NCBI GenBank assembly: GCA_905221615.1
Contig: CAJNDT010006010.1
Span: 84,501 to 148,500, forward strand
DNA length: 64,000 bases
Source of the DNA: Symbiodinium sp. CCMP2592
Lineage: Eukaryota > Sar > Dinophyceae > Suessiales > Symbiodiniaceae
Direction: 5' to 3'
Below the pieces are notes generated by a model that was given only the letters and a program-made list of their open reading frames with translations, was not told the origin of the DNA and made no database searches. Below, in pieces: positions 32,062 to 64,000 of the stretch (position 1 is the stretch's first letter; each line of letters opens with the position of its first letter). A program made the position numbers and the translations under genes.

Positions 32062-32063
32062 TA

Positions 32064-32084
32064 ATGTCAACCTCCTATTAATAA
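32064..32084 (+). repeat. Left terminal inverted repeat
   Basis: The sequence ATGTCAACCTCCTATTAATAA matches the reverse complement of 43103-43123 at 17 of 21 positions. It is preceded by TA and followed by a run of C. Confidence 0.75.
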
Positions 32085-32154
32085 CCCCCCCCCCCCCCTT
32101 GATTGATTTGTCGCCCGGGGTAGGGGGGATTGATTATTGAGGGGGGTCGTCGTC

Positions 32155-32345
32155 GTAGTACAGTAGTACAGTATCACAATAATTAGTACAGTAGTACAAT
32201 AGTACAGTATTATAGTACTACAATATAATGATAATAGCACAATAGTACAAAAGTACAGTATTGATACAATAGTACAGTAGTAGAGTAGTACAATACGAGT
32301 ATTGTAGTAATATTTAGAGTAAGTAATAATTAATACAGTAGTAGT
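32155..32345 (+). repeat. Degenerate AGTAC/AGTATA repeat
   Basis: Units such as AGTACAGT and AGTACAATA are repeated with drift. The tract lies between the left terminus and the first GC-rich block of the transposon. Confidence 0.75.
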
Positions 32346-32672
32346 TGCACGTTATCGCGGCCGAGCAGCTTGGGCTCTCGGCAATTATCGCCCTCTTGCA
32401 CTCTCACGCAGCCGCTCCTCTCGTCTCTAGATACGTATCCAGTATTGTTTCTTATTTTTTGTTTATTTGTAATTATGAATTAAACTACATCTCTCTTAGA
32501 ACTTGTCTAATTACACTCAATCCCCCAAGGCAATGGCCTCCTTGACGACAACCTCTGTGCCGGCTCTCTCTGAGATTGCAGAGGAGGGGCCTCTGTAAAA
32601 TAAGTAATAAATAAACTCTAATTTCGGAATCCCCTGCAGGCGGGCTCTCTGGCCCCGGCCGAGGATCTCTCG

Positions 32673-33716
32673 ATGATGGGAGACGAGGAGGGTTCAGTGG
32701 GTTAAGGGGTGGTGCTCTGGTTTTGGGGGGTTTCTCTTGCCCTGCAGGGCGGCTCTACAGCAGCGGAGCCCGGAGCTCCTCTCGCGGACTCGGACCAGGC
32801 AGCTCTGGGAGAGCTTTTGGACTCTAAGTAAATGGGCTTTAGTAATTATAATAAATCTCGAGGGTTTAAAAGGGTTTTTCCCTGCAGGCTCCGGCCAACT
32901 CTGCTCTCGGCGGAGGAGGAAGCGGAGGCTCTGGCCGTGGTGGACCGCCGGGCCCCGGCTCTCCGGGGGATGCAACTTGTCTAATTAGTTATAGGGTTTA
33001 ATTAGGGGTTTAGGGGTTTAGGATAATTATTGCTTGTATTCTCTCAACCTCAGGGATGGGGCTCTGATCCTCCCGTGCTGGGCTACTACACCGGAGCCCG
33101 TGTCGTGGGCCTCTCGCTGCTGGTGGTGTGCCTAGACCGTAATTACACCTGTAATTAAACCCGACTAAACCCTAATTAATGGTATTGAAACCTAAACCCC
33201 AAACCCTAAACCCAAACTCTCAGGAATGTCTCTTCGATCCTGGTCACCTACCATCGTGCTGCCGATAGTCTCGGGGCTCTTCGCCGCAGCGGAACGCACA
33301 CGCGGCTCACTCTCAGAAGGCCCTCTTCTTTCTTTAAGTATTTTTTGGGGGGGTTCGCTTTGTTTCTTAATGGGGGTTGAGTTTATTTAGTGATTCAGTA
33401 TAGAATATAGGGACTGTAAATCAGGTGGTTGGACGCCGAGCTCTCGCGAATGCACTCTGAGTCGCACCACACGGCGAACTCTTGGCAGGCGGTTTGTGTC
33501 TTCTCTAGATTTCGCAGCTTCTTTTCGTTTTCGTTGTGAATTAACAAAGATAGTAATTACTAGGGTTTAGGGTTTATTTATTAATTAATTAATTATTCAT
33601 TAATTAATTAAGTTCTAATTACTAGTTCCCAAATCCTCTCAGGCATTATGGGAGCTTTGGGTGCAACTCTGGAGTGCATCTGGAAGCTCCTCCACGAACT
33701 CTCGGACGACTCTTAA
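32673..33716 (+). CDS. Candidate seven-exon transposon gene, about 191 codons
   Basis: I could join seven short open blocks with GT-AG introns, each boundary keeping one frame. Exons are 32673-32696, 32748-32827, 32888-32978, 33054-33138, 33224-33337, 33425-33532 and 33643-33716 (stop TAA). Intron phases are 0, 2, 0, 1, 1, 1, and five of the six acceptors end CAG with G following (the third and sixth read CTCAG). The start is ATGATG at 32673; the open block extends upstream to 32640, so a further 5' exon is possible (an ATG-led frame at 32534 does not join in phase). The product is acidic and Ala/Leu-rich at first (LADSDQAALGELLDS, then SAEEEAEALAVVD), then hydrophobic and basic. I recognise no domain. 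The model rests only on frame joining and could be incomplete. Confidence 0.35.
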
Positions 33717-35489
33717 TTACAATGGAATTAACCCGAAACCCTTAAACCCTAAACCCTAACCTTAGTTACTTACTAATCTAACCCTAAAGCCACTCCCAGG
33801 AGACGGCGCCCACTCCAGCGCATGTGGGCGAGATTCTGGCCTCTGTGAAGTGGCTCTGGGAGGAGTTTCTCGACTTGAAATAATTAATTAATAAACCCCT
33901 AAGTAAGCCCTAAAACCCCACTTGAGCCCTGAACCCATAATTAATTAACCCTTAAACCCCTAAACTCTAAACCCTAAGTAACGAATACCCTGGAGGTCCG
34001 GGCTCTGCTCTCCTCTCTCCAATGCACCGGAGTTTGGGGGTGTGCTTGGATTGTGGTTTGCGAACCAAAGCTCTATCGTCATTGACCGCTGCCGCTACCT
34101 TGCTGAGTTTCTTGGTTGTTTAATTAACGTATTTCTTTCCGTAATTAGTTATATCTCAATAATGTAATGACAATGGGTTGTTTTAATTCTTAATTGAACA
34201 TGGATTCGGATGCGTCTGTGGACACTACAATCCGCCGAGAAAAAATTGAACATGGCAGGTTCTCTTGCTATCGGCAGTTCAGCTGGCCTCTCATGCTTCG
34301 ACGAGCCTCTCGGTTTAGTTAATAAAGGGTTCAGGGCTTAGTTAGGGGTTGTTAATTAAATAGTTAATTGAGGTTTGGGGGAAGATGGCTTATGTTTTGC
34401 TGCAGGTGTCCTTCCCTCTCTGGTTGGAACAACAAGCCCTCTCGGTGACCTGCTTCTCTGCCGACCGATGGGACCCTCTGCTGTGATCACCAACTTTTTT
34501 TTGCAACCTCTAGTTAAAGCCTGAAACCCTGAACCACAAACACCCACCCTAAACCCTAAACCCTAAATTAATTCTCATCCGAGGCCTAGAGGAACCTCTC
34601 AGGGAGAAGATCTCTTTGATGCTCGGTTGTTTTAATTAATTAATTAAGCCTTTCAAAAAATGTAATTAAACAACACCCCTAAACCCTAAAGGCCCTAAAG
34701 CCTAAAACCGGAAAACCCACAACCCCTGATTAATTAAACCTTGAACCCTTAATTAAACCCTAAATAACTAAACTCTGAAACCTCTAACTTGAAACCCCAA
34801 ACCCTGAAATAAGCCCTCTGAAACCCTAAACCCCAAACTCTAAACTTACCCAAACCCTCAAACCCTAAACCCCAAACTCTATCCGAGGCATAGGGGTGGA
34901 GCCTCTATGCCTTGATTCTGGCGACGCTCGGCTCTGGTTTTAGGGTTCGGGGTTTAGGGGTCAAGGGGTTCCAGGGTTTGGGGCGGTTTTAGGGTTTCGG
35001 GGTTTAGGGTGAAGGGGTTCCAGGGTTTGGGGTTCGTTGGGGGTATTCCTTAATTAAACCCTATGTACCTAATTAATTAAGGCTTAACTAAACCCTTCTT
35101 AAGTAATTAAACCAAAAACTTCAACACCCTAATTAACCCCAAACCTTAAACCGTGGCCCTACACACAAACTAGGCCGTACACCTTAATTCAACCCTAAAC
35201 TCCCCAAACCCTCTTAATTAATTCATGCTCCGAGGAGCTCTTTGCTTTGGCTCTCGAGCAGCACTCTACGCTGCTCGACGATAATACTCATTATTATATT
35301 ATATTATATTATATTATATTATATTATATTATATTATATTAATTATATTATAGAATATTATATTATATTATACTATATTATATTATATTAATTATATTAT
35401 ATTATATTATTTATATATATATATATATATATATCATGATTTCATGTATACTACTTAATTATACACATATGTTATATATGTATATGTAT

Positions 35490-35520
<31 letters not shown>

Positions 35521-35543
35521 GTATGTATATATATATATATATT

Positions 35544-35586
<43 letters not shown>

Positions 35587-36110
35587 TTACATATATGTAT
35601 ATATATATATATGTGTGTACATATTCATATATATATATATATATATATATACATATCTATCTATCTATCTATATATATATATATAATGTTATACATATGC
35701 CCATCCCAGGCTTTGATGAGCCGGGCTCTTCAAGATCGAGAGCTCGCAGAAGCCGGCTTTTTTTAAAGTAACCCTAATTAAACCCTAAACGCTAAACCCT
35801 AAACCCTTACCTTAACTTCGAGCCTAAACCCTAGACTCTAAAACCTTAACACCTGAACTCTCAGGCAACCCAAAACCCTACTAAACCCCCGAAACCCTAA
35901 ACCCCAACCCTTAAACCCTAAACCCTTACAGGCCTTAATTACCTTTACCTTCGAGCCTAAACCTTAGACTCTAGAACCCTAAAACCTCAACTCTCCAAAA
36001 AAGCCCGCTCTCTGCTGGAGCATCTCTCTGGAACTGTTCAGCCGACTCTCAGCTTGGCTCTGCAAAAGAGCTCACTCTTTTGTGCTTTGGGGTTTAGGGT
36101 TTATGTACGG
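33139..36110 (+). repeat. Intronic telomere-like CCCTAAA/TTTAGGG and TTAATTAA filler
   Basis: AT-rich segments between GC-rich blocks consist largely of degenerate CCCTAAA units and TTAATTAA runs. Examples are at about 33195-33215, 33740-33760, 34545-34566, 34850-34880, 35775-35810 and 35880-35930. The opposite orientation (TTTAGGG, GGGTTTAGG) appears at about 34938-35030. TTTAGGG is the plant-type telomere unit, also reported for dinoflagellates. The units are scattered, imperfect and change orientation, so this is interstitial and not a chromosome end. GC-rich blocks in between (for example 33799-33883 and 34880-34935) may be more exons, which I could not join. Confidence 0.7.
35285..35690. 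repeat. (ATTAT)n and (TA)n/(GTATAT)n microsatellites
   Basis: A pentanucleotide run ATTAT occupies about 35288-35412. TATATA and GTATATGTATAT runs extend to about 35690. The Tyr/Ile-rich frames across it are artefacts. Confidence 0.95.
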
Positions 36111-36184
36111 TTTAATTAATTAGTTTAGTTTCTAGCGCAAACACACACAAACACGCATGCTCTCTCTCTCTCTCTCGCTGTCTA

Positions 36185-36215
<31 letters not shown>

Positions 36216-36404
36216 GCTTTTAAAGTTGTGTTTTGCGGAGAACAGTCAGCCCGGGAGCTCTTTTGCTCTCAGCAACTTGGCCTCTTGCTTGGAAACATGG
36301 AGACTGTCTCTCCCACCGTCTCTGTGAACCAGTGCCTCCGTTCGCATTTCGCTTTGGCTCTTGTGTCTCTTTCAATAATCTTTTCTTTTTATTGCCGGAC
36401 TCAG

Positions 36405-36801
36405 GTACGTTTCTCTTCTCTGCATCAGCAGATGCTTCTTGGAGCACGAGGAAGACGTCGCCTCTCTGATTGGAGAACTCTTGGGCCTGCCTCTGCATGA
36501 TTGCTCTTGGTGCCTTGAGGACGGCATGAGGTTCTCTCCGGAGGTCTCTTGTTTCAGCTCTGAGAGGTGGACTCTTCAGGGATGGCTGATCCGACGCAGA
36601 GATCTCTCTGTTGGAGACCTTCTCTTCTTGGAGGGCCGTCGCTCTTGGCGGGTGCTGACCCAGGAGGATCTCGATGATCTGGGGAACTCTCTGCCTGGCA
36701 GTCAAACACACTCTGAAGCTTCTGAGCATGATGAGCACCACTCTGATCATGATGATTGGGAGATGTTAGTTCCTCTCCCTGCCTCGCCCGAAGCGGCCTG
36801 A
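36405..36801 (+). CDS. Transposon-encoded acidic protein, 3' exon
   Basis: An open block follows an acceptor-like GGACTCAG at 36397-36404 and ends in TGA at 36799-36801. It has no internal ATG near its start, which fits an exon rather than a complete gene. The product has a segment HEEDVASLIGELLGLPLHD, a basic middle, and an acidic His/Asp-rich tail with repeated SE/HD pairs before the stop. A preceding open block at about 36228-36350 is a candidate upstream exon with an unresolved junction. No domain recognised. Codon use shows the same CTCT bias as the transposase. Confidence 0.4.
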
Positions 36802-37263
36802 ACTGAACTCTCTCTCGCTTTCAGCAGAAACAGCCGGCTGCTCGCAGGGTCTCTGTCGCATGTTTGTTGAGCGGCCACTCTGAACAAGTCTTTTGAATAG
36901 CCAAGAACTTCTCTTGTGCATTCGCCGCAAGACTCTTTTGAGCAGCCACGCTGAAGAAGGCAGAACTGAAGCAGTGTTCTCTTTTCAACCTTAGCAGAAG
37001 CTCGTATCAGCCCCGCTCTGACCGTGTAAGTCCTTTAGAAAGGCATCGCCTCTCCATTGCAATGGCAATGGAGATCTCTTCGGAGGAGGAAGCGGCACCG
37101 GATGCCGTCGGCTCTTCCCTCGGTCTTGCAGGAGCTGTCGTTGCCTCTGAGTCCAGCTCTTCCAGCAGACAAGGCACGTTTGGTAAAGTGTCAGCAATGA
37201 ACAATGATCCTGCTCTCCTTTCCCTGCTCCTTTGAAAGCCGAAGCTTTCGCAAGCAAGGACAT
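36802..37263. other. Transposon spacer, 3' UTR-like
   Basis: CTCT-rich sequence without a convincing open frame, between the acidic-protein exon and the 300-bp repeats. Confidence 0.4.
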
Positions 37264-38240
37264 GAAGGCATAGTTTCTGAGGCCCTTTAAATCTGCTGTT
37301 TCGGAGTCCCGTGGCTTTGGAAGCTAAAGCTTTCCCAATGCAGGGCTTGGCTTCTAAAGCTTGCTTTCCTTTTGAATCCAAGGCTTTCCCAATGCAGGGC
37401 TTGGCTTCTAAAGCTTGCTTTCCTTTTAAAGACACCACCAGAACGGCCCTCCCCGGCGGGAGTTTATAATTGAGGGGGGTTTATAATTCTGCAGAACGGC
37501 TTTTGTTAGTACTCCATCAGGACGGATTGATTTTTGGCTCCGGGAATAAGGAATTTTATTAAGGAAGGCATGGTTTCTGGAGCCCTCTATATCTGCGGTT
37601 TCGGAGTCCCGTGGCTTTGGAAGCTAAAGCTTTCCCAATGCAGGGCTTGTCTTCTAAAGCTTGCTTTCCTTTTGAATCCAAGGCTTTCCCAATGCAGGGC
37701 TCGGCTTCTAAAGCTTGCTGTCCTTTTAAAGGCACCACCAGAACGGCCCTCCCCGGCGGGAGTTTATAATTGAGGGGGGTTTATAATTCTGCAGAACGGC
37801 TTTTGTTAGTACTCCATCAGGACGGATTGATTTTTGGCTCCGGGAATAAGGAATTTTATTAAGGAAGGCATGGTTTCTGGAGCCCTCTATATCTGCGGTT
37901 TCGGAGTCCCGTGGCTTTGGAAGCTAAAGCTTTCCCAATGCAGGGCTTGTCTTCTAAAGCTTGCTTTCCTTTTGAATCCAAGGCTTTCCCAATGCAGGGC
38001 TCGGCTTCTAAAGCTTGCTGTCCTTTTAAAGACACCACCAGAACGGCCCTCCCCGGAGGGAGTTTATAATTGAGGGGGGTTTATAATTCTGCAGAACGGC
38101 TTTTGTTAGTACTCCATCAGGATGGATTGATTTTTGGCTCCGGGAATAAGGAATTGTATTAAGGAAGGCATGGTTTCTGGAGCCCTCTATATCTGCGGTT
38201 TCGGAGTCCCGTGGCTTTGGAAGCTAAAGCTTTCCCAACG
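37264..38240 (+). repeat. 300-bp tandem repeat, about 3.3 copies
   Basis: Copies begin at 37264, 37564, 37864 and 38164 (the last truncated near 38240), with an exact 300-bp period and few differences. Each copy contains an internal duplication of about 60 bp (AAGCTTTCCCAATGCAGGGC, then CTTCTAAAGCTTGCT). Each also contains the block TTATAATTGAGGGGGGTTTA, which closely resembles both subterminal ends of the transposon. Two identical 79-codon frames arise from the period and are probably not genes. Confidence 0.9.
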
Positions 38241-38411
38241 AAGGGCTTCGCTCAGTATATAGGCATACGAGGCTTCGCTCTTGCTTGCAAAGCTTGCTTT
38301 CCTCTGACTCATTCGGCATGTCATTGAATCAATGCTTTCTTTCCCTCGTCAGGCCTGCAAGCTTCTCTTCGGCGGTTCTTCCAGCCCTCTCACCCAGAAG
38401 CTCAGAAGCCA

Positions 38412-40677
38412 GTGCGGTTCCTTCCCGGCAAGCAGGGCGGTCGGCCCCTCTCTCGCGAGATGAAGCAGATCATCGCTCAAGTAGCTGAAAAGCAAGCTCT
38501 CGAACAGAAAGCTCTCGACGAAGCTTTGATAGCTCGAGAGAGCGAAGTGCAAAGCAAGAAGCGGTACTACGGAGGCCGCCCCAAAGGCAGGAGCTCTGGG
38601 AGAAGCGATCTCCCAGTTGCCGTGCGGGCAGCTCTCGTGCAGGAGATGGAACTCGCTGTTGCAGGCGACCGCTTCTCTGACGAAACGGAGTTCTTCAGTT
38701 ACTTCGCCAAGAAGTTCGCTCTGCCGAAGAAGCGAGTCAAGACTCTGTGGCTGCAGCGGAGCTTGGTCAAGAAGACCTCTCAAAAGAACAAACTCTCACG
38801 CAAACCCCACCGCTACACTGGTGCCAAGGGCACCAAGAGGTCGCATCTCAAGCGTGCGTACAGAGGCTTTCGTCTGCCAGGAGCGGGTCGGAAGCACTCT
38901 TTCCCCGACTTGGTGGACAAGGCTCGTGAGTGGTTCAACGAGATGCGCTCTTACGGGAACCAGGTGCTTCGAGTGGACCTCTACAACTACTACATCCACC
39001 TCATGGAGATGGACAAGATACGGGTGCAGGCGGATCTCTCTGATCCGAAGCTGCTGCAGCCAAAGCGGACGCCTCTGCAGGTGAGGCTCTCGGAGCTGGA
39101 CAAGCAGCTGGCCTCTCAGAAGAAGAGCGACAAAGCCAAAGAGTCTCTGAAAGGTCGTCTCGAGAAGTGGTGCTCTGCAAGGAACTTGAGGCCTCACCTC
39201 GTCACCAAGCTCACGCCTCTCCAAGAGCAGTCGAGATGCCACTTGACGTGGCAATCTTTCGACAGGGCTCTCTGGCTTGCTGCCTGCTCTGACGAGGAGA
39301 CTCTGGGGAAGCACGTCTCTAAGCCAAAGCAGTTCTTGGAACACAGAGCCTCTCTCGCGATCCTTTTCGCCGATCAAATTCCGCTCTGGGTAAAGGCGGG
39401 TGCCGAGAGGTCTCTCTTCGCCGAGTGGGAGCGAAAACCCACCTCTCAGGCGGCTCTCCGGCAGGACTTGGCTGCTCTGCACGACAAAAAAACTCCGGGC
39501 AGGCGGACGTGGACTCTGGTCTGGTTGTGCAGCACCCAGACTCTTCCGGAGATGCTCAGGGTCAGAGGCAACTCCGCTCACGCCAGGACCTCTCTGCAAT
39601 GTTTTACTTGGGTCGTTTCTGTTATAATTCATAACCTTATTCCTGCCGGCAGGAGCCTCTCGCGGACCGCTTCCGCCTCACTTACGAAGCCCGGCAGGTC
39701 TTGTTGAACTACAACTCTCCGGGAACGCCGCCGACTGGCCTCTGTTACAAAGGTCTCATCATCATCAGCGGGCCTCATGCCAGACTCTCGAACATCTCTC
39801 AGGACGGCAAGTGGCTCTGCGATGAGACCTTTGAGTGGAGAGGGAACCTTGTCTCTCACAAGAAGGGCACCTCTGTTGGCAGGCTCATGGAGCCATGGAG
39901 AGCTCTGCGAGCCCAGAAGCCGCACCTCTTTGAGCACGTCTCTGTGATGATGCAACCGAGCTCTAATGCCGACAGCATCATACTCTCCTGGGTGGCCCAG
40001 GAACTCTCAGAGGCGTTTCCAGCTCTGCTGGTGCAGAGGGACTGCCTGGGAGCCTCTTTCACAGAGTCTGTCTCTGGTGCCCACTTCTTGGGGAACACGA
40101 TCCAGACTCTGGTCGCTCCGAAGATGACGGCCTCTCTCCAGTTGACGGACACAGCCTCTCGCATGCACTGGTCTTTCTGTTTTTGTTTCGAGCTCTCAAC
40201 TCCCAAACCCATTCTGAGGACTTCTCTCGCAGATTCAAGTCTCTGTGCCGCACCTCTATGGCGGAGAGGAGGTCTCTGGGCCAGAAGGCTCTGACAGAGA
40301 GCGGCAAATCCTCTGTCTGGGCTGCCTCTGTGGAGGACATCTGCGAGACCATCGTCTCTGCCCAGAAAGCCTGTGCCGAGGATGCCTCTGACTGGGTGCT
40401 CTCAGGGCTTCGGCGGAATGGCATGCTGGCCTACCGCCCTCTCGACGGCAAGCTCCAGCCGGCGGAGCTCTCCACGCCCTCTTTCAAGGACCTGCCGCAG
40501 GGCTCTGCAAGACTGCGAAGCGAATGGCTGGAACCACGCTTTGGCTGGGTGCAGGATGGAATCCCCTCTGAACCAGACTGGTCTCTGATTCCTGGCACGG
40601 CCGCTGCCCAGGAGCTCTTGGACTGGGACGTCGCTCACGGCGACAAGAACTCTGCATCTCTTCTCAAATCAGCATAG
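38412..40677 (+). CDS. pogo/CENP-B-like DDE transposase
   Basis: The coding block is open from an acceptor at about 38355 (CTCGTCAG) through 39611. It then has a probable 41-bp intron (39612-39652, TGG|GTCG to GGCAG|GAG, phase 0), continues to about 40160, crosses a second short intron or gap, and ends TAG at 40675-40677. Numbering from 38412, residues about 95-120 (FALPKKRVKTLWLQRS) fit a helix-turn-helix. Residues 158-197 (GAGRKHSFPDLVDKAREWF and on) fit a CENP-B-type DNA-binding helix-turn-helix. Catalytic acids are D321 in ILFADQIPLW (39372), D in LLVQRDCLGA (40040) and D in LQLTDTAS (40148). The last two have 35 residues between them, so DD35D. The family cuts and pastes DNA at TA targets, matching the element ends. 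The second intron has no clean GT donor in phase; a GC donor after ATG at 40159 is possible. Upstream exons may exist. Confidence 0.7.
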
Positions 40678-40787
40678 CTGTATGTTCTTGAATTAATTAG
40701 TCAAGTAATTTTGTCAAACGTCCCCTAACCCGATTTTCGAAGCTCTGAACAAGATTCACCATCCAGGAGGAGGACTACTTCTGTGAC

Positions 40788-42522
40788 ATGGACTCTCTGC
40801 CACCAACTCTTCGGTGGAACTGCTTCGAGAGCGGCGTTCTCAAGCTCCCGCCAGCTCTCTTGCAGAAAGCCTGGAAGAGGGAAGCTTCTCTCGCGGTGGA
40901 GGAGAAAGCGAGAATCCTCGCAAAGAAAGCTGAGAGACAGCTCGTCTCTCAAGCCAAGCGGTCTGTCTCTGAGAAGTTCAAAGAGGCGATGCGGCTCAAG
41001 CTGAAGGACATCTCTCGCCAGCAAGCTCTCGCTCTCCACGTCCCTGAAGCAGGGAAGGCGAAAGCCAAAGCGAAGCCTGCCTCTGGGAAGGCCGGCTCTC
41101 TGACGAAGGCTCTGAAGAAGGGACTCAAGAAGAGCTCTCTAAAGAAAGCTGCCGCTCTGTTGGCGGGCTCTCAGAAGAAGGTCCAGGAGCTGATCTCTGC
41201 ACCAGAGCCTCCGAAGACTCTGCAAGGCCCTCTCTTCGGCAAGCAGGTCCGCATCGTGGCGGAGCTCTCGCCCTCTCACCTTGTGGGCCAGGAGGGCAAG
41301 GTCTCTTCGCACCTCTCTCAGAAGCTGACTCTGCCGAGCTTTGGTCTGGCCTGTGCAACTCTGAACCTCTCGGAGAAGGATGTGATGCCTCTCTCCGAGA
41401 GCTGGACAAAGTCTCTGGAGTGGCAGCCTCTGCGGCTCTCCAGACTCTTCAAGAAGGAGGTGCTCTTGAACTGTGGTCTCTGGTGCGAAGACGACTCTTT
41501 CGTGCCGGAGCCCGTGGAGGTTACTCTTGCCAAGAAGCCGAAGATGCTCTTGGACCAGCAAATGAATGCTGCCTGGGCTCTCGTCCGCCACCACTTCGAG
41601 CAGAAAGGACCCTGCTCGTCTGTTTTGTAAGGACTCTGTCGTTGCATTTAGGACTCGTACTTAATGACTGTTTCTGACAGGAGAGAGCCTCTCGGACGTG
41701 TTCTTCGTGGACGCCTTCCTCTCCAGCTTTCTCTTGCAACACGAGAAAAAGGAGTACCTGATCGCTCACCTACAGACGCAATGGCAGGAGCACAACCTCC
41801 TCTTCATTCCGATCTACACACGGAAGCCAGACCACTGGACGCTGCTCGTCCTCCAGAAGGGCTCTGAGGGCGAACCGCCCAAAGCTCTCCTCGCCGACTC
41901 TCTGAAGAAAGACAAAGCTCCGACAGCATGTGCAAATGAGCTGAAGGGTCTCTTAGCCGACGTGGACAAGTCGCCTCTCACCGACTACCCGACGGTGACC
42001 CAGACCTCTGACGACTGCGGCTTCTTCTGTCTCGCCGTGATGGTGGAGTACCTCTCCCTCCGCCGTGGCGAAGGGCCCAAGCAGAGGGGCTCTCAGCACT
42101 CTCTAGTGGCGGATCTGAAGACCAAACTGTCGACCTTCACCTCTCAGCTGAAGGCCGAAGTCAAAAAGCTCTCGGACGAGAAGGAGGAATATCTCATGGA
42201 CCAGGCCGTTCAACTCAAGAAGGCCTCTGACAAGGCGAAACTCTTGGCGAAAAAGGCCGAGGCGGAAAAGGGCGAACTCTCGGCTTTGCAGAAGGCTGCT
42301 CTCAAGGTCCTGAAGGAAGGTGCTCCACCGGATGTCTCTGATTTGGGCAAAGAAGCCCTCGTGGACATCGAGCGGATCAAGACTCTCGGAGATCCAGGGG
42401 TGTGCTCTCGCTGTCACTGGCAGAGCGGCTGTGCCTCTTGCGATGTCTTTAAGTGCACTCGCTTCCACGTGCGAGAGCTCTGCCGCACTCTGGGCAAGAA
42501 GCCCCCAGCTTGGGCTCTCTGA
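40788..42522 (+). CDS. Ulp1-type (C48) cysteine protease of the transposon
   Basis: There are two open blocks: 40788 (ATG) to about 41619, and about 41684 to the TGA at 42520-42522. A TCT|GTTTTG to GAGAG|AGC intron would join them in phase 0. The first block is Lys/Ala-rich and probably helical, with basic AKAKAK and KKGLKKSSLKK stretches. The second is an Ulp1/SENP-like peptidase. With numbering from 41698, it has H46 in DHWTLLVL, D67 in LLADSL, oxyanion Q102 and C107 in TQTSDDCGFFCLAVM, in family order and spacing. It is followed by a charged coiled coil (about residues 140-215) and a C-terminal cluster of six Cys and two His (CSRCHWQSGCASCDVFKC), perhaps zinc-binding. C48 enzymes cut SUMO or related proteins. 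Here the role may be transposase maturation or removal of SUMO from host or element proteins. Confidence 0.75.
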
Positions 42523-42547
42523 TCGCGAAATTTCTCTGCGCAAGATT

Positions 42548-42985
42548 GAAAATCGCAGCTGAAGCTCTGCAGTTTCTCTCTCTCTGCAGACCTCAAACCA
42601 TCGCAGTAGCTGCATTTTCTCTCTCTCTCTGCAGACCTCAAGCCCTCGCAGTAGCTGCATTTTCTCTCTCTCTGCAGACCTCAAGCTCTCGCAGTAGCTG
42701 CAGTTTCTCTCTCTCTGCAGACCTCAAGCCATCGCAGTAGCTGCAGTTTCTCTCTCTCTGCAGTCCTCAAGCTCTCGCAGTAGCTGCAGTTTCTCTCTCT
42801 CTGCAGACCTCAAGCCATCGCAGTAGCTGCAGTTTCTCTCTCTCTGCAGTCCTCAAGCTCTCGCAGTAGCTGCATTTTCTCTCTCTCTGCAGACCTCAAG
42901 CCATCGCAGTAGCTGCAGTTTCTCTCTCTCTGCAGTCCTCAAGCTCTCGCAGTAGCTGCAGTTTCTCTCCTTTTCTCTCTCTCAC
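42548..42985 (+). repeat. 43-bp tandem repeat, about 9 copies, acceptor-like
   Basis: The unit is 43-45 bp: TTTCTCTCTCTCTGCAGACC, TCAAGC, then CATCGCAGTAGCTGCAG or CTCTCGCAGTAGCTGCAG. GCAGTAGCTGCA recurs at about 42603, 42648, 42692, 42735, 42778, 42821, 42864, 42907 and 42950. Variants alternate (CCATCG and CTCTCG; AGACC and AGTCC). Each unit has a long pyrimidine run and CAG, which looks like a 3' splice acceptor. It lies just after the protease stop codon. Confidence 0.9.
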
Positions 42986-43102
42986 ACAACAACACACAAC
43001 AAGAAGTATCTAATTTCGGGGATTTTGGGCCGGAAGGTTTTGTAATTGAGGGGGGGTTCATAATTGAGTTCCGGGGGTGGGGTTTTGTAATTGAGGGGGG
43101 AT

Positions 43103-43123
43103 TTATAAAAAGTAGGTTAACAT
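43103..43123 (-). repeat. Right terminal inverted repeat
   Basis: Its reverse complement ATGTTAACCTACTTTTTATA is the partner of the left end. It is bounded outside by TA (43124-43125). Inside lie two copies of ATTGAGGGGGG (43045-43055 and 43090-43100). Confidence 0.75.
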
Positions 43124-43249
43124 TACCACATACTGGTCATTGTCATTGCTGGCAGCCCGACGCATGAGCAAGCAGAGCGATGAACAACCTCGTGTAAACT
43201 CACTCTCGCGGCCGCCACAAGTTTTGCAGCATTTCCGGCTCCAATATAC

Positions 43250-56655: not shown

Positions 56656-56973
56656 AAGATCGTTCTTCCGCTTAAGTTTGGCACGAGCCCTTCGGGCGCG
56701 TTTCTTTCGTGATCTGACATCTGATCCAGACTCTGTGGCGACAACACCTGCATCTCCGTTGTCTCCAGCTGTGGCTGCACATCGTGAAGAAGTCCTTCGA
56801 TCAAGGGTGTCATTAAAGATCGTTCTTCCGCTTAAGTTTGGCACGAGCCCTTCGGGCGCGTTTCTTTCGTGATCTGACATCTGATCCAGACTCTGTGGCG
56901 ACAACACCTGCATCTCCGTTGTCTCCAGCTGTGGCTGCACATCGTGAAGAAGTCCTTCGATCAAGGGTGTCAT
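56656..56973. repeat. 160-bp tandem duplication in Copia
   Basis: The sequence from AAGATCGTTCTTCCGCTTAA to CAAGGGTGTCAT is present twice with an exact offset of 160 bp and apparently no difference. Because 160 is not a multiple of three, the duplication shifts the polyprotein frame and explains why two overlapping frames share a C-terminus. It must be younger than the insertion or arose during replication. Confidence 0.9.
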
Positions 56974-58040
56974 CACGTAGCCGCCCGCATTCTGGTCCAT
57001 CTCGATGTCGCCCATGGTGTAGCTCATGATCCTTCACGAGATTGGCAAGAGCTTCTAGCTGGGGCCTCTGGGAACCAAAAGTCTCTGCGGCACTCACCTC
57101 CTGCGTCTTCTCATGCGGCAACTCAGTCACTTCTGACGTCTCCATGACTCCCATACCCTCGAAGAGCGGTACTGCATAATGCCCTCGTTCCGTTTCCTTA
57201 AGCTTAAGCTTAACCCCGCAACGCTTAATCACCATAACATCACTCTCCATATCCAAGTTAGCCTTCAAACCCCTCAGCAGTTCCTTGGACATAAGCAGTG
57301 GAGTTCCTGCACCACTACCCGGTAGAACAGCTGCCTTTATAGCAAGCTGTTTGTTCCCCAACTTCACTGGGATTACGACTGACTTCTCGGTACGAATTAG
57401 CCCCGCGTTACCGAACTTGAACTCATGACACTCATCAACATATCGCACCTGCAAGCCAGCTCTACCCAGGACCTCAGACATGCGCTGTAACACACTCTCA
57501 CCTATCAGAGTCCTCCTACACGCTGTGTCTGGAACCCCGTGCGTCGCGAGATCAGCCATGTATGCCTCGCTGGACGACGCAAGGTCTTCGTCTTTCTTGG
57601 AAAAACTCAAAGATCTTATTTTCAAGATCCCCTTCACTCCATCACCTCCGGCATCATGCTCCAGAGGATTCGCCAAAACTACATCGACCTGGCCGTCGCG
57701 TTCCGCCAAGAAGATCTCTAGCTTGTCGATGTCTTCCTCTTGGATGAAAAGCTCCTGGCTCAAAGCATCCAGACTGCTGCCTCCCGCCTGGTCCGTCATC
57801 ATCGCATCGCTGGTGTGGTTCGACATGGAACTCGCAGCTGTACTTCCCGTCTTCCTCTTTGGACATTCATGTTTCCAGTGACCCGTCTCATGACAGATGT
57901 GACACTTGCTTCGTGCCTTCAACTGTTCAATCTTGCCCCGCACCGTGCCTGTGAGTGTCCACTTAAAGGGAGCCGCCGACGATCTGTAGCCACGATTCAT
58001 TTTCTTCTGCTGCATCTTCTTTCTGATGTCCTGGTATGTC
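56974..58040 (-). pseudogene. Copia zinc knuckle and aspartic protease
   Basis: The minus-strand frame contains the gag zinc knuckle CHICHETGHWKHEC (about 57910-57865), which binds RNA. A protease domain follows with HGVPDTACRRTLIGE (about 57545-57500), where DTAC stands for the catalytic DTG/DSG, and then LPGSGAGTPLLMSKELL. Retroviral-type proteases need a dimer of such domains to cut the polyprotein. The frame is open from about 58040 to the duplication. Confidence 0.85.
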
Positions 58041-58719
58041 GTCCTGCTGTTGGATCTGGTCCGCCACGGCTTGGAAGACGTCCTCGCTGCCATCGTCGAG
58101 CTGCTGCGGCTCGGCGCCATCATCATCCACTGCCTCGAAAACCTCCTTGCTCTTAGCACTTCCAGATTTTGAGACTCCCTGTGGAAATCTAGCTTGCACA
58201 GCAGCTGCGACATCAGTGTACTTCAACGAGCCACGCGTGTGGGTGAGGATCATGGCCTCCGCACTGGACTCCAGTTGGAGTTTCCTCAGAAGAAGCCATC
58301 CACGGACTTCCCCCGGCAACTCCGCGGAATGCTCCTGCAAACGCCTGTAAGCTGTATCCAGTCGCACACCCAGGTTCCTGTACACTGTACGTCTCATTGG
58401 CCTTGATGCTTGTCCCGAAGAAGTACTCGGTGAGATGCTTATGCAAAGCATCCTTTTGCAGCTCTTTGTGCTTTGCGTCAAGTAGCTGAAACACTTGCTC
58501 ATAGCCATCCTCCTTCGTCAGCTTCTCCAGCGACAGTGTCTCACATACCTCCTCTGCTTCACCTGCCAGGTACTCAAGGAGCTTGGCACCCCACCTGTCC
58601 TTGGTGAACGTGTTGGGAAGCGCGAGCAGCATCAGTTGCTCCTTGCGGCGCCACTTCCGATACTGTGACGGCTGCGACCCATCAAACCTCTCAAGTCTGG
58701 GTCTCTCATCCTTTTCCAC
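57963..58719 (-). pseudogene. Copia gag (capsid) region
   Basis: Start ATG at 58717-58719. The product begins MEKDERPRLERFDGSQPSQY, typical of Copia gag (UBN2-like) proteins, with the pattern RFDG...Y..W. The frame changes near 58375 (NETYSVQ to RNLGVRLD) and again near 58040 (DQIQQQ to TYQDIRKK). Both look like single-base indels. The start lies about 80 bp after the primer-binding site. Confidence 0.8.
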
Positions 58720-60269: not shown

Positions 60270-63200
60270 TTAATCATCTGAAACTTGGACTGGCATAGGG
60301 CCAGCCTCCGCTGTGTGCGGTATTGAACCAAGTCGCACGAACAGCACATAGCAGCCGTGGCGTGCCTGCCTGAGATCTGAATCTGAGGCCTGAACCGACG
60401 GACGACCATCGTCCGTGCTGAGCCAAGGTTGATCGGGGTTGCTCCTCCAGAGGGAGCGATAATGTCCACTGTGCGGGGTGTCACCTATGTGGAAGATACA
60501 GGACTGAACCCATCCTTTCTCTAGTTGTACGGAGCCCGTCGGGGCCCACTGCGAGAGCTGAAGGGGGTGGTGCAGACCAGTGACAGCATAGCTGAGCTTG
60601 CGGCCTTCAACAAATCGCGCCACTGTGAGAACCACCAGTCGTTGCTGCCCTCGAAAGGCGGTGTGCACCGGCTGGCCAGACCACCGAGAGAGCAGCTCCT
60701 GAAGTGCATGGGATCCACCTGTCGTTGGAGCTGGCAGCAAAGCGAGCGGACCTCCCGCATCGGTGACCTCAGTAGTGTTTACATCCCTGACTTCCCAGGG
60801 TCGTGCAATCGGAAAGGCGGTAATGCCTGCAAATAAGGCCACTAGAAACTCCGAAGCATCTTGTTGTTGGCCATCATAGCGCCAAGCGGGAGTAAGATGG
60901 CGAAGCGTGAAAGAGGCAGTCAGGGTGAAAGGAGAACCAGAGACAGAATCAGCCACTTCCTGATGGAGGGAGGTGCTTGCCCCTCCGTGCTCCAGCAAGA
61001 TGCACGTCGGCACCAGGGCCGAAAGCGTTGAGTTAACATAGCAGTAGTTGGAGATGTTGCGCAGCGAGCGAGGAGCAGCGAGCGCGCCGTCCTTTGATTC
61101 TACTGTCCCTGACTTCGGTGGCAGGGGGCCTGCAGGCGTTGCCTGGCGAGTCTGGGGCGTTGCTCCAACAGCGGTGGTATCGTCCCGTGTGGGTGCGTTG
61201 CCTTGTGTCGTGCCAACCGCTGGCATGTACCTGCGTAACGGTCCGCCCTGGCAGCGGGAAAGTGCATGAACCAAGTCATAAAACAGAATCTGAAAAAGGA
61301 TCGGACATTGTGCCGGATGCTGCCTCTTATCCGTAACAGGCTTGCGGCAGCACGGGCAAGGCATGCCCTTGACAAGGGTCAGGCCTGATTTGCTGCTCTG
61401 AGTTGCAGCTGTAGCGCCATGAGCCGCCCATTCAGGTTTGTGGGCCTGCCGGATGTGAGACTTGAGCTTGGTATTGTCCGGGGTCCAGAACCCACACAGC
61501 AAGCAATGTGACATAAGGTCCTGAGACTCATCAGATCGTCCGAGCTCCACAGCCGTGTGTGTTGTCAGAGTGTCATGCAAGCGCTGCTGCCTGGGATGCA
61601 ATCTGGGCTGATGCTGCGAATCCAAGGGAGGGTGCGCCGCGTCATCCAGCTCCTGTAGCCTAGCTGGCTCCGAGCAGGCACCTGATAGCAAGTGGTCCTT
61701 TAAGCCCTTCATCTGAGGGAATTGCCTGTTGCAGGCCGCACACTTGGGGAGCCCTCCTACAGAGAGGGTGTGGGAGAAGCCTCGAGGGACATATCTGATG
61801 ACCGAGCCTGGATGCTTGCGGGCCTGGTGGGTGCGAAGACCGACCTCAGTGTCGAAGGCCTGAGCACACGTTGGGCACACGAAGGACGGGGGGGCCTCCT
61901 GCTGTGATGTGTCCTTAGAAAGTTGCTGCAGAACGTCTGCATAACTAGTAGAGAGTGCCTCCGCCTGGAGAAGCGCGCGCTGGGTTAAAGAGATGTCCCC
62001 CGCAGGAGTTTTCCGCCGTCGAGCACCTAAGCGCTTGACACGATTGGCCTGTCGCGCCTGCAGCTTACGGACAGGGTCCATGATCTCATGGGAGGCGTAG
62101 AGGTCAGCCGTGGATATGTGTGTCAGGTGCGCTGGCTTGTTCAGGACAGCTCGAATTTTGCGAGCGTGCCAAGCCCGCAACAGTTTAGCTGTCTCTAGGG
62201 TCAAGCCCACATCCACCAATCCAGAGGCTACTGTGGCCCAGACAGTGCTATGCCAAATGTGCAACCGCGATGCAGGCCCCGCCGTTCGTCTGTTGTGAAC
62301 GAAGCGGCGTACCTGCTGCAATTTCACATTGCCCTCCTGCAACCGGAACTTGAGAGTAGCCTTCTCGAAGTTGGAGTAGGAGAGCATGACGCCGAGATAC
62401 TTAAAGGACGTCACCAGCGGAAAGCCCTCGTGAGACTTGGACTCTCCCAGTCTCCACATCTTATGGCGGGTTCCGTCAGGCGCGGTGCGCCAATAAGTGT
62501 GCTTGGAGATGGCGCGTTGCGCCTGTTGGCCCTCGAGTTTGACCATAACAGTGCATTTTGCACCGTTGACAGCAAATCCATGGCGACGGACCAACTGCAA
62601 CAATTGCTCAATCAGAGCATGAGCGCGATCCAGGTCCTCCATTGAGTGGATGTCACGGTGAACCGTAAGGTCATCTGCGTAGCCCGTGAGGTAGTCCACC
62701 ACGGCTCGAACCCCAACAAGAGCTATGAGCTCCCGGAAGATGGTGCCCGTAAGCATGGAAAAAAGTGTGGGGGCAAGCTTACACCCCTGTTTAATGCCCG
62801 CAGTGGACTGGACCGTGTCCTCTTCACCCTGGGTGCGAAACGTGTAAGCACTGCCAGCATGCAATGAGGCAACTAGGTCAATGAGGTCTTGCGGGACTCC
62901 CGCTTCCTGCAGTGTGCTAAGCAAGTCTGTTCTGCTCACCATGTCAAAGGCTTGTGACAAGTCTAGTGCAAAGCAGATGCCACCTACTAGCTGGGGACGA
63001 GTTCGTCCCGAGTGAAGCTGATGCCTGGTTCGTCGGGCCTCCTGGCAGTTATTGCGTACCTGAGTGACATGACCAACGACCCTGCTCAAGGCATCTGAAA
63101 GACCGCGATGTGGCTGGTAGGCAAATTGTGGGAGACCCCGAAGATAGTCAGCCGTGTAGGGAGACAGCTGATCTCTACAAGCCCCCGCCAGGCCCTTGCC

Positions 63201-64000
63201 GTCTGGTCGAATGATGCCGAGGGGACGTAGATTGCCAGGCTTCGTGGCCGGCTTGTTAGGCTTTGGGATAAAACACAAGTCAGCATCCTTTAAGGGCGGC
63301 TGAAGTACCTCAGCAGCCGGCAATGGGCGTTGCCCCCGAGATTGCAGCGATGCTGCTAGCGCCTCTCCCGCAGCCGCCGAGCAGAGCCGCCAGGCAGCCG
63401 CCGGAGCAGAGCCTTGCGGTACCGCCTTGTGCGGTCTGATGGAGCCTATGTGCTTGGCCAGCAGACCAGCCGGGATTTCCGGCAGCGAGTCCACCTGGTG
63501 TGCGAGTGGCGGATGTCTGGCAAAGACCTGTTCCACGTGGTCTCTAAGCAGGCGGAGCTCAGAGGTAGAGTCCAACAGCAGACCATCCGGTCCCTGAAGC
63601 TGTGCCTTAGTTTGGGGTTCCCAAGGTCGGAGCTTCTTTAAGGTCTTATGTGCGATGTAGGAATCGTGTCTGGCACACGCCTCATCGACCTCAGCCTGGA
63701 AAGCTCGGTGTCGTTCCTTCTTGGCTACGTAGAGAGCCTGCTTATGCCATCGATTCAGGTCCTCCAAAGACTGATCTAGGTCGGATAAGGTGGTTATGGA
63801 GTCCTCATGCAAAGAACGAATATGAGCGACTCGACTCCACATTCGCAGCGTCGCACGGTGCTGAGCAGTTTCAGGAGCTTGCTGAGGCCGTGGTTTGGGG
63901 AAAAACAGTGCAGAGGCCTCCAGCAGTACCTGATTAACTTCATCAGGCGTGTGAGTCCGAGAGGACAGACGCTGGCCCACCCAGTCTTGCATGCGACCGG
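60270..64000 (-). CDS. LINE ORF: reverse transcriptase, zinc fingers and USP protease
   Basis: Open from the window edge to TAA at about 60270; 1240 codons are visible from the ATG at 63992, but the frame continues upstream. RT: ICFALDLSQAFDMVS (motif A, D344), GIKQGCKLAPTLFS (motif B, about 399-412) and LTGYADDLTV (motif C, D440/D441). Cys/His fingers follow: C706/C709/H722/H727, C751/C754/H767/C773, C830/C833/H846/H851 and a C879-C882/H892/C896 cluster. The last about 245 residues form a compact ubiquitin-specific protease: Cys box NISNYCYVNSTLSAL (C984), QQQDASEFLVALF (1042-1054), His box TPHSGHYRSLW (H1177) and WLSTDD (1190-1195). RT copies element RNA at the target, and fingers in this place usually bind nucleic acid. 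A USP would cut ubiquitin from proteins. I know of OTU-type proteases in some LINEs, but a C19 domain in the RT frame is unusual. Confidence 0.9.
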   Translation of the reverse strand, partial: GRMQDWVGQRLSSRTHTPDEVNQVLLEASALFFPKPRPQQAPETAQHRATLRMWSRVAHIRSLHEDSITTLSDLDQSLEDLNRWHKQALYVAKKERHRAFQAEVDEACARHDSYIAHKTLKKLRPWEPQTKAQLQGPDGLLLDSTSELRLLRDHVEQVFARHPPLAHQVDSLPEIPAGLLAKHIGSIRPHKAVPQGSAPAAAWRLCSAAAGEALAASLQSRGQRPLPAAEVLQPPLKDADLCFIPKPNKPATKPGNLRPLGIIRPDGKGLAGACRDQLSPYTADYLRGLPQFAYQPHRGLSDALSRVVGHVTQVRNNCQEARRTRHQLHSGRTRPQLVGGICFALDLSQAFDMVSRTDLLSTLQEAGVPQDLIDLVASLHAGSAYTFRTQGEEDTVQSTAGIKQGCKLAPTLFSMLTGTIFRELIALVGVRAVVDYLTGYADDLTVHRDIHSMEDLDRAHALIEQLLQLVRRHGFAVNGAKCTVMVKLEGQQAQRAISKHTYWRTAPDGTRHKMWRLGESKSHEGFPLVTSFKYLGVMLSYSNFEKATLKFRLQEGNVKLQQVRRFVHNRRTAGPASRLHIWHSTVWATVASGLVDVGLTLETAKLLRAWHARKIRAVLNKPAHLTHISTADLYASHEIMDPVRKLQARQANRVKRLGARRRKTPAGDISLTQRALLQAEALSTSYADVLQQLSKDTSQQEAPPSFVCPTCAQAFDTEVGLRTHQARKHPGSVIRYVPRGFSHTLSVGGLPKCAACNRQFPQMKGLKDHLLSGACSEPARLQELDDAAHPPLDSQHQPRLHPRQQRLHDTLTTHTAVELGRSDESQDLMSHCLLCGFWTPDNTKLKSHIRQAHKPEWAAHGATAATQSSKSGLTLVKGMPCPCCRKPVTDKRQHPAQCPILFQILFYDLVHALSRCQGGPLRRYMPAVGTTQGNAPTRDDTTAVGATPQTRQATPAGPLPPKSGTVESKDGALAAPRSLRNISNYCYVNSTLSALVPTCILLEHGGASTSLHQEVADSVSGSPFTLTASFTLRHLTPAWRYDGQQQDASEFLVALFAGITAFPIARPWEVRDVNTTEVTDAGGPLALLPAPTTGGSHALQELLSRWSGQPVHTAFRGQQRLVVLTVARFVEGRKLSYAVTGLHHPLQLSQWAPTGSVQLEKGWVQSCIFHIGDTPHSGHYRSLWRSNPDQPWLSTDDGRPSVQASDSDLRQARHGCYVLFVRLGSIPHTAEAGPMPVQVSDD

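Follow-up and report, generated by a model that had tools for sequence, protein, structure and literature searches.

A pogo-like DNA transposon of Symbiodinium encoding a transposase fused to an Ulp1-type protease and bearing a CTCT signature

A 64,000-nucleotide stretch of the genome of Symbiodinium sp. CCMP2592 (the window; C5148:84501-148500 in the searched genome assembly) contains, at positions 32062 to 43125, one genuine DNA transposon of ∼11 kb (Table 1). The best explanation of the whole, mechanism included, is a pogo-type (Tc1/mariner) cut-and-paste element encoding one long fused protein, to which we assign a probability of roughly 0.8. The predicted order of the protein is an N-terminal region, a CENP-B-like helix-turn-helix, a DD35D core, a basic linker, an Ulp1-type protease, and a Cys motif. 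An initial annotation of this DNA had described a large, intron-bearing element of an unusual lineage, which our results support; the CTCT signature, the multiexon 5′ half of the gene, the ATTGAGGGGGG repeats, and the short nonautonomous copies are additional to it.

The element ends in TA-ATGTYAACCT..., an imperfect inverted repeat matching at 17 of 21 bases past the TA (25 of 31 counting the TA). This pair was the top scorer among 1,316,576 TA-anchored, nonsimple 21-mer pairs lying 1 to 25 kb apart in the window, after application of a low-complexity filter (the unfiltered version was dominated by AT repeats). AGGTTRACATTA is exact only at 32062-32073 (minus strand) and 43114-43125 (plus strand), and the remaining five of its seven matches have two mismatches. 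Chance resemblance of the ends is ruled out by the pair score and by other copies sharing the same ends, and the TA-flanked inverted ends proposed in the initial annotation are confirmed. Six exact copies of ATTGAGGGGGG lie inside the element and none in the rest of the window; with two mismatches allowed, the window count was not above that of shuffles. CCCTAAA/TTTAGGG occurs 27 times within the element and once outside it in the window, and TTAATTAA 17 times and not at all, respectively; the introns of the 5′ half of the gene (33000-36100) are rich in both these telomere-like heptamers and TTAATTAA.

A search of 1,098,105,373 bases in 5,383 contigs with a 4,201-base query covered the full query at 8 other loci with 97 to 100% identity and matched it piecewise, or interrupted by a contig end, at 3 further loci (C1378, C5248, and C297). 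The best-aligned blocks of the 8 copies are 0.2 to 2% off the window (98 to 99.8% identical; two blocks span only 2.3 to 2.7 kb), so that the spread looks recent, and the family looks recently mobile on this sequence evidence. At these 11 loci, 10/10 fetched left ends are the same as in the window copy (C2495 was excluded, as its contig starts inside the element), and so are 10/10 fetched right ends (C297 was excluded); copies with different ends, which had been named as evidence against the initial annotation, were not among them. Judged by their coordinates, the nine other copies that have both ends are ∼10.9 to 11.4 kb long. Flanks mostly differ between copies; common right flanks occur in C2495/C3668 and C1957/C5248, and common left flanks in C1378/C5248 and C4886/C297. 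Such flank sharing may reflect alleles, duplications, or joins made in assembly, and C5248, with the left flank of C1378 and the right flank of C1957, may stem from copies that recombined or from contigs misjoined in assembly. Five pattern stretches in viral contigs were considered as possible carriers, but none is related to the element, and no phage match was found.

Short derivatives also exist. With 126 bases of the right end as the query, 89 candidates and 40 scored matches were obtained, and 30 loci among them were inspected: long copies (window included) account for 11, as their right ends, 10 are complete short elements, and the other 9 do not satisfy strict patterns of both ends. The 10 short elements (954 to 1251 bp) have both ends, TA on each side, and differing flanks; they retain the right end, along with a portion of the 300-bp repeat that the long element has in its large intron, and each contains four or five ATTGAGGGG motifs. 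When the two flanks of the short copy L070 are joined by a single TA, they give an unbroken match (94%) elsewhere on the same contig, in which a gap of 4 bases and a few mismatches lie off the junction, and the sequence of that locus is continuous across the junction with one TA. As the L070 flank is a repeat, the empty site is paralogous and not an empty allele. Support for a TA target-site duplication comes from this single paralogous site, which belongs to one short copy. The joined flanks of another short copy, L069 (G000:C4936, ∼363.6 kb), resemble protein kinase coding sequence by eye, and this copy may lie in a gene or serve as an intron. The unit of the 43-bp repeat of the long element matches many further genome loci, and several of those contigs also bear the right end.

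Exons were read by dinoflagellate-type splice sites (GT, GC, or GA to AG, then G); boundaries of the GC/GA-AG type are reported at 25 to 74% in Symbiodiniaceae in the consulted part of PMC11453091. The introns of the main coding part begin with GT, GC, GC, and GA and end in AG before GA, and certain edges differ in P0001, a predicted Symbiodinium sp. CCMP2592 protein. The spliced open reading frame (ORF) from 38355 to 42523 has 1298 codons, including the stop, and its product is 97% identical to P0001 over 100%. The gene model therefore places transposase and protease in one spliced ORF, with Ulp1 at the C terminus. The family set consists of 68 proteins, with Symbiodinium and Durusdinium as the named organisms, and Ulp1 is present in all 25 that are long enough to show it; the deep tree branches P0049, P0054, P0057, P0058, P0061 to P0063, and P0066 are too short to judge its presence. 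The initial annotation had proposed a separate C48 protease with an intact H-D-Q-C active site: the residues are indeed conserved, but a separate gene is ruled out by the single spliced ORF, the 97% match to a predicted protein, and the 25/25 family fusions. Nor is the association of the two domains peculiar to this locus, a pattern that would have spoken against the initial annotation.

Relative to its sister P0001, which has no shift, the window copy shows a frame change near 39.49 kb (tblastn) and may therefore be dead or misread. Upstream, the parse of the 5′ half gave 20 exons, or 21 exons and 552 residues after in-frame training; its only homology-backed parts are 36406-36720 (N-terminal region of P0006; E = 1.3e-13) and 37044-37133 (P0002; 93%).

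Several features place the transposase closest to pogo (with its kin Fot1, Tc2, Tigger, and CENP-B), with which it shares the TA target and the DDD triad. TA lies at 20 other long-copy ends, at both ends of the 10 short copies, and singly at the empty site. The second and third Asp residues are 35 residues apart in all 54 family sequences having both aligned, in agreement with the DD35D, CENP-B-like transposase named in the initial annotation. Available sections of PMC7325037 give DD30-35D spacing for pogo, with DD35D in groups 33 to 40, and a DNA-binding part that combines a helix-turn-helix with a CENP-B-like region. A structure model predicted from 60 sequences appears to have a CENP-B-like N-terminal fold, and its top Foldseek match is Mos1.

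Alternatively, the element could belong to a separate DDE superfamily that merely resembles pogo, with TA target, helix-turn-helix, and DD35D acquired by convergence. No DDE family was matched in Pfam scans of the family proteins, the gap between the first and second Asp is long (115 to 301 residues across the family), and integrase cores ranked above Mos1 in the VIA comparison, in which Mos1, integrase, and CENP-B are separated by no more than ∼1 Z, too little to discriminate among superfamilies. We nevertheless regard this alternative as rather doubtful, given the combination of TA duplication and DD35D, the predicted fold with its Mos1 match, and the residues around the third Asp (LQ-TD....FK), which resemble the pogo motif.

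The pogo-type element still departs from its relatives in its 11-kb length, many introns, fused Ulp1, and dinoflagellate host. Elements of the pogo group are usually small, and the ciliate TBE and Tec elements have three ORFs each. Tc1 and mariner are ∼1.3 kb and PlantMar 2 to 6 kb, according to PMC7325037, and the word “dinoflagellate” has 0 occurrences in the main text of that Tc1/mariner paper. The literature searched contained little on dinoflagellate DNA transposons of this type.

Fusion of a transposase with Ulp1 has a precedent in Ginger1. To our knowledge, Ginger1 has no CENP-B-like part, and it differs from the present element in its Gypsy-integrase-type core, zinc finger, and GPY/F motif and in being known from animals such as Hydra. 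No integrase was matched in the Pfam scans, in which the H2C2 zinc finger and GPY/F motifs were not searched for as such. Elsewhere, KDZ transposons carry Ulp1 as a passenger gene near a different transposase and not, as here, as a fused domain, and Mutator-like elements, which belong to another transposase superfamily, make long target duplications. The likeness to Ginger1 lies in the C-terminal Ulp1 of the transposase, found here in 25/25 proteins; the portion of PMC2836005 consulted describes Ginger1 as an intron-containing element with DDE transposase and C-terminal Ulp1 in one protein and notes that Mutator-like DNA transposons likewise bear Ulp1. No pogo-Ulp1 fusion was found in print among the titles and abstract openings of the open-access PMC papers searched. 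The pogo-Ulp1 fusion is probably a second origin of such a fusion beside that of Ginger1.

The protease domain is conserved in its catalytic residues, with the active-site His in 26/26 family sequences and the Asp, Gln, and Cys each in 25/26. It matched a PDB profile at E = 1.6e-12, its solved relatives being SUMO/ubiquitin-like proteases, and the Pfam match to Ulp1 was over the cut-off in P0037 and under it in P0001. Similarity to SENP1/2/5/8, XopD, and NopD argues for SUMO-like conjugates as its target, formed on silencing or repair factors of the host, and we consider this the probable role; the same fusion exists in Ginger1, for which a role in transposition and repair was proposed (PMC2836005, in part). 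Self-processing, in which the protease would release the transposase and accessory parts from one polyprotein-like precursor, would suit a single ORF with the protease placed C-terminally behind a long basic linker, but is unlikely, as the solved relatives are SUMO/ubiquitin-like proteases.

The second main feature of the element is its abundance of interspersed sense-strand CTCT (Table 1). The two low kilobases of this stretch (9 per kb) are, respectively, AT-rich and mostly intron repeat, clusters beyond the stretch amount to 3.3 to 4.7 per kb, and CTCT in 38331-42530 has 7.2-fold the frequency found outside the element. Five other CTCT- or AGAG-rich spots in the window are mostly CT microsatellites or looser runs. 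The main coding part contains 152 CTCT, compared with 66.2 (standard deviation [SD], 6.1; maximum, 86) in 500 synonymous-codon shuffles that keep protein and codon usage (z of 13 to 14), and CTCT is the highest-ranked tetramer tested there. With the frame-shifted stretch removed, 148 remain versus 64.3 (z = 13.2). Taken singly, all six exons rank CTCT first (z of 4.2 to 7.6; 5.6 in the last exon). The motif occurs in all three codon phases (39, 56, and 57), and the Ala codon is GCT in 21/22 cases ahead of Leu and in 21/88 ahead of residues other than Leu or Ser. Four control ORFs in the window gave z values of 0.5, 0.8, −1.0, and 1.5; codon bias and Ser/Leu content are ruled out as explanations by the synonymous shuffles, together with these controls.

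The 135 CTCT clusters lie at a mean distance of 29 nucleotides with a coefficient of variation of 0.55, versus 0.81 (SD, 0.07) for random placement, and none of 5,000 random sets was as even. Density is ∼33 to 51 per kb in exons versus 6.6 per kb in the large intron, and the four short introns jointly hold 4 CTCT in 274 bases (∼15 per kb). The motif is almost absent from the first 300 and last 140 bases of the element. It is dense also in further exons and in the 3′ repeat; as the last exon and this repeat are among the dense parts, its role is unlikely to be restricted to splice sites.

Related genome pieces show the excess to differing degrees. Observed and expected counts are 35 and 17.3 in the close copy L064 (intron included), 18 and 8.7 in L015, and 14 and 7.2 in L018, which has two stops and whose 58%-identical part has 11 and 5.4; the 8 in L017 (4.8 expected) are inside the shuffle range, and the most distant piece, L021, has no excess (2 versus 2.1). 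Ser plus Leu make up mostly 21 to 25% in members near the window's clade versus 10 to 21% in others, which is only a hint bearing on the signature.

A role at the RNA level is our favored guess for CTCT. Evenly spaced CUCU might form a second, nonprotein code laid across the codons in all three frames of the mature transposon RNA, a proposal that we put forward tentatively; no such signature was found in print (titles and abstract openings of the open-access PMC papers searched). It is also conceivable, if doubtful, that CTCT is an unselected mutational or compositional by-product: T is scarce near the clusters in the coding part, as a biased process might leave it, and L021 lacks the excess. 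Such a by-product is hard to reconcile with the even spacing, with the excess over synonymous shuffles that the control ORFs do not share, and with a sense-strand motif sparser in the large intron than in exons. A DNA-level mark, e.g., one linked to 5-hydroxymethyluracil or to the proteins that pack dinoflagellate DNA, is improbable. This modification seems enriched over Breviolum repeats, and an older TA/TC preference in Crypthecodinium is cited, but no sequence motif is reported for B. minutum (all from passages of PMC11071213), and the strand bias of CTCT, its exon density, and its near absence from the ends of the element do not suit a DNA mark.

For the pogo-type element, we infer the following mechanism. 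The DNA-binding part would recognize the terminal repeats, and perhaps also the ATTGAGGGGGG repeats, and the DDD core would cut at TA. At the element or its target, the tethered Ulp1 may free host proteins of silencing or repair from SUMO-like modifiers, and the short copies would be mobilized in trans. As a guess, CTCT may work in the transcript via a CU-binding protein in exon definition, export, or protection; the recognizer of CUCU could be an RNA-binding protein of the host or one made by the element, acting in splicing, export, protection, or self-recognition.

Table 1. Features of the element in the window
Feature	Position	Strand	Remarks
Left TA, target-site duplication	32062..32063	.	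TA at both ends of window copy and at 20 further fetched ends; one empty site
Left terminal inverted repeat, 29 bp	32064..32092	+	Recurs at 10/10 other left ends
ATTGAGGGGGG motif, left subterminal	32136..32146	+	Exact copies also at 37469, 37769, 38069, 43045, 43090
Stretch of interspersed sense-strand CTCT	32370..42980	+	19-66 per kb, except two kilobases
5′ half of gene, ∼20 small exons, ∼550-570 residues	32533..37133	+	Model
Large intron with 300-bp tandem repeat (37264-38248)	37134..38352	+	Edges approximate
Main coding part	38355..42523	+	Exons 38355-39611, 39653-40153, 40219-40671, 40767-41607, 41681-42523
First catalytic Asp codon (ADQIPLW)	39372..39374	+	
Second catalytic Asp codon (RDC)	40040..40042	+	
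Third catalytic Asp codon (LQLTD)	40148..40150	+	
Ulp1/C48 domain, mostly last exon	41681..42300	+	Codon starts: His 41833, Asp 41896, Gln 42001, Cys 42016
CxxC...CxxC zinc-finger-like motif (CSRCHWQSGCASC), C-terminal	42404..42442	+	
43-bp tandem repeat, 9.3 copies, CT-rich	42567..42969	+	3′ of stop codon
Right terminal inverted repeat	43095..43123	-	Recurs at 10/10 other right ends
Right TA, target-site duplication	43124..43125	.	Other fetched ends and single-TA empty site

Two other ORFs lie on the minus strand of the window. One (60270-63992; 1240 residues) matches reverse transcriptase (E = 3.3e-23), a C2H2-type finger (E = 0.001), and UCH (E = 3e-6) and is, by these matches, a predicted retroelement with a fused deubiquitinase-like domain. 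The other (56813-58213) has a zinc-knuckle match (E = 0.0054) and is copia-like by eye.

The fusion of a pogo-type transposase with a SUMO-type protease spans a diverse family. This probable second origin is an argument that transposition benefits when SUMO-like marks are taken off, and it allows a clean test of that idea. The CTCT signature, as a constraint that can be measured, could give insight into exon recognition in dinoflagellates or into the marking of RNA by the transposon that encodes it. If true, such an overlapping code, regularly spaced along the whole gene of a transposon, would represent a novel type of feature.

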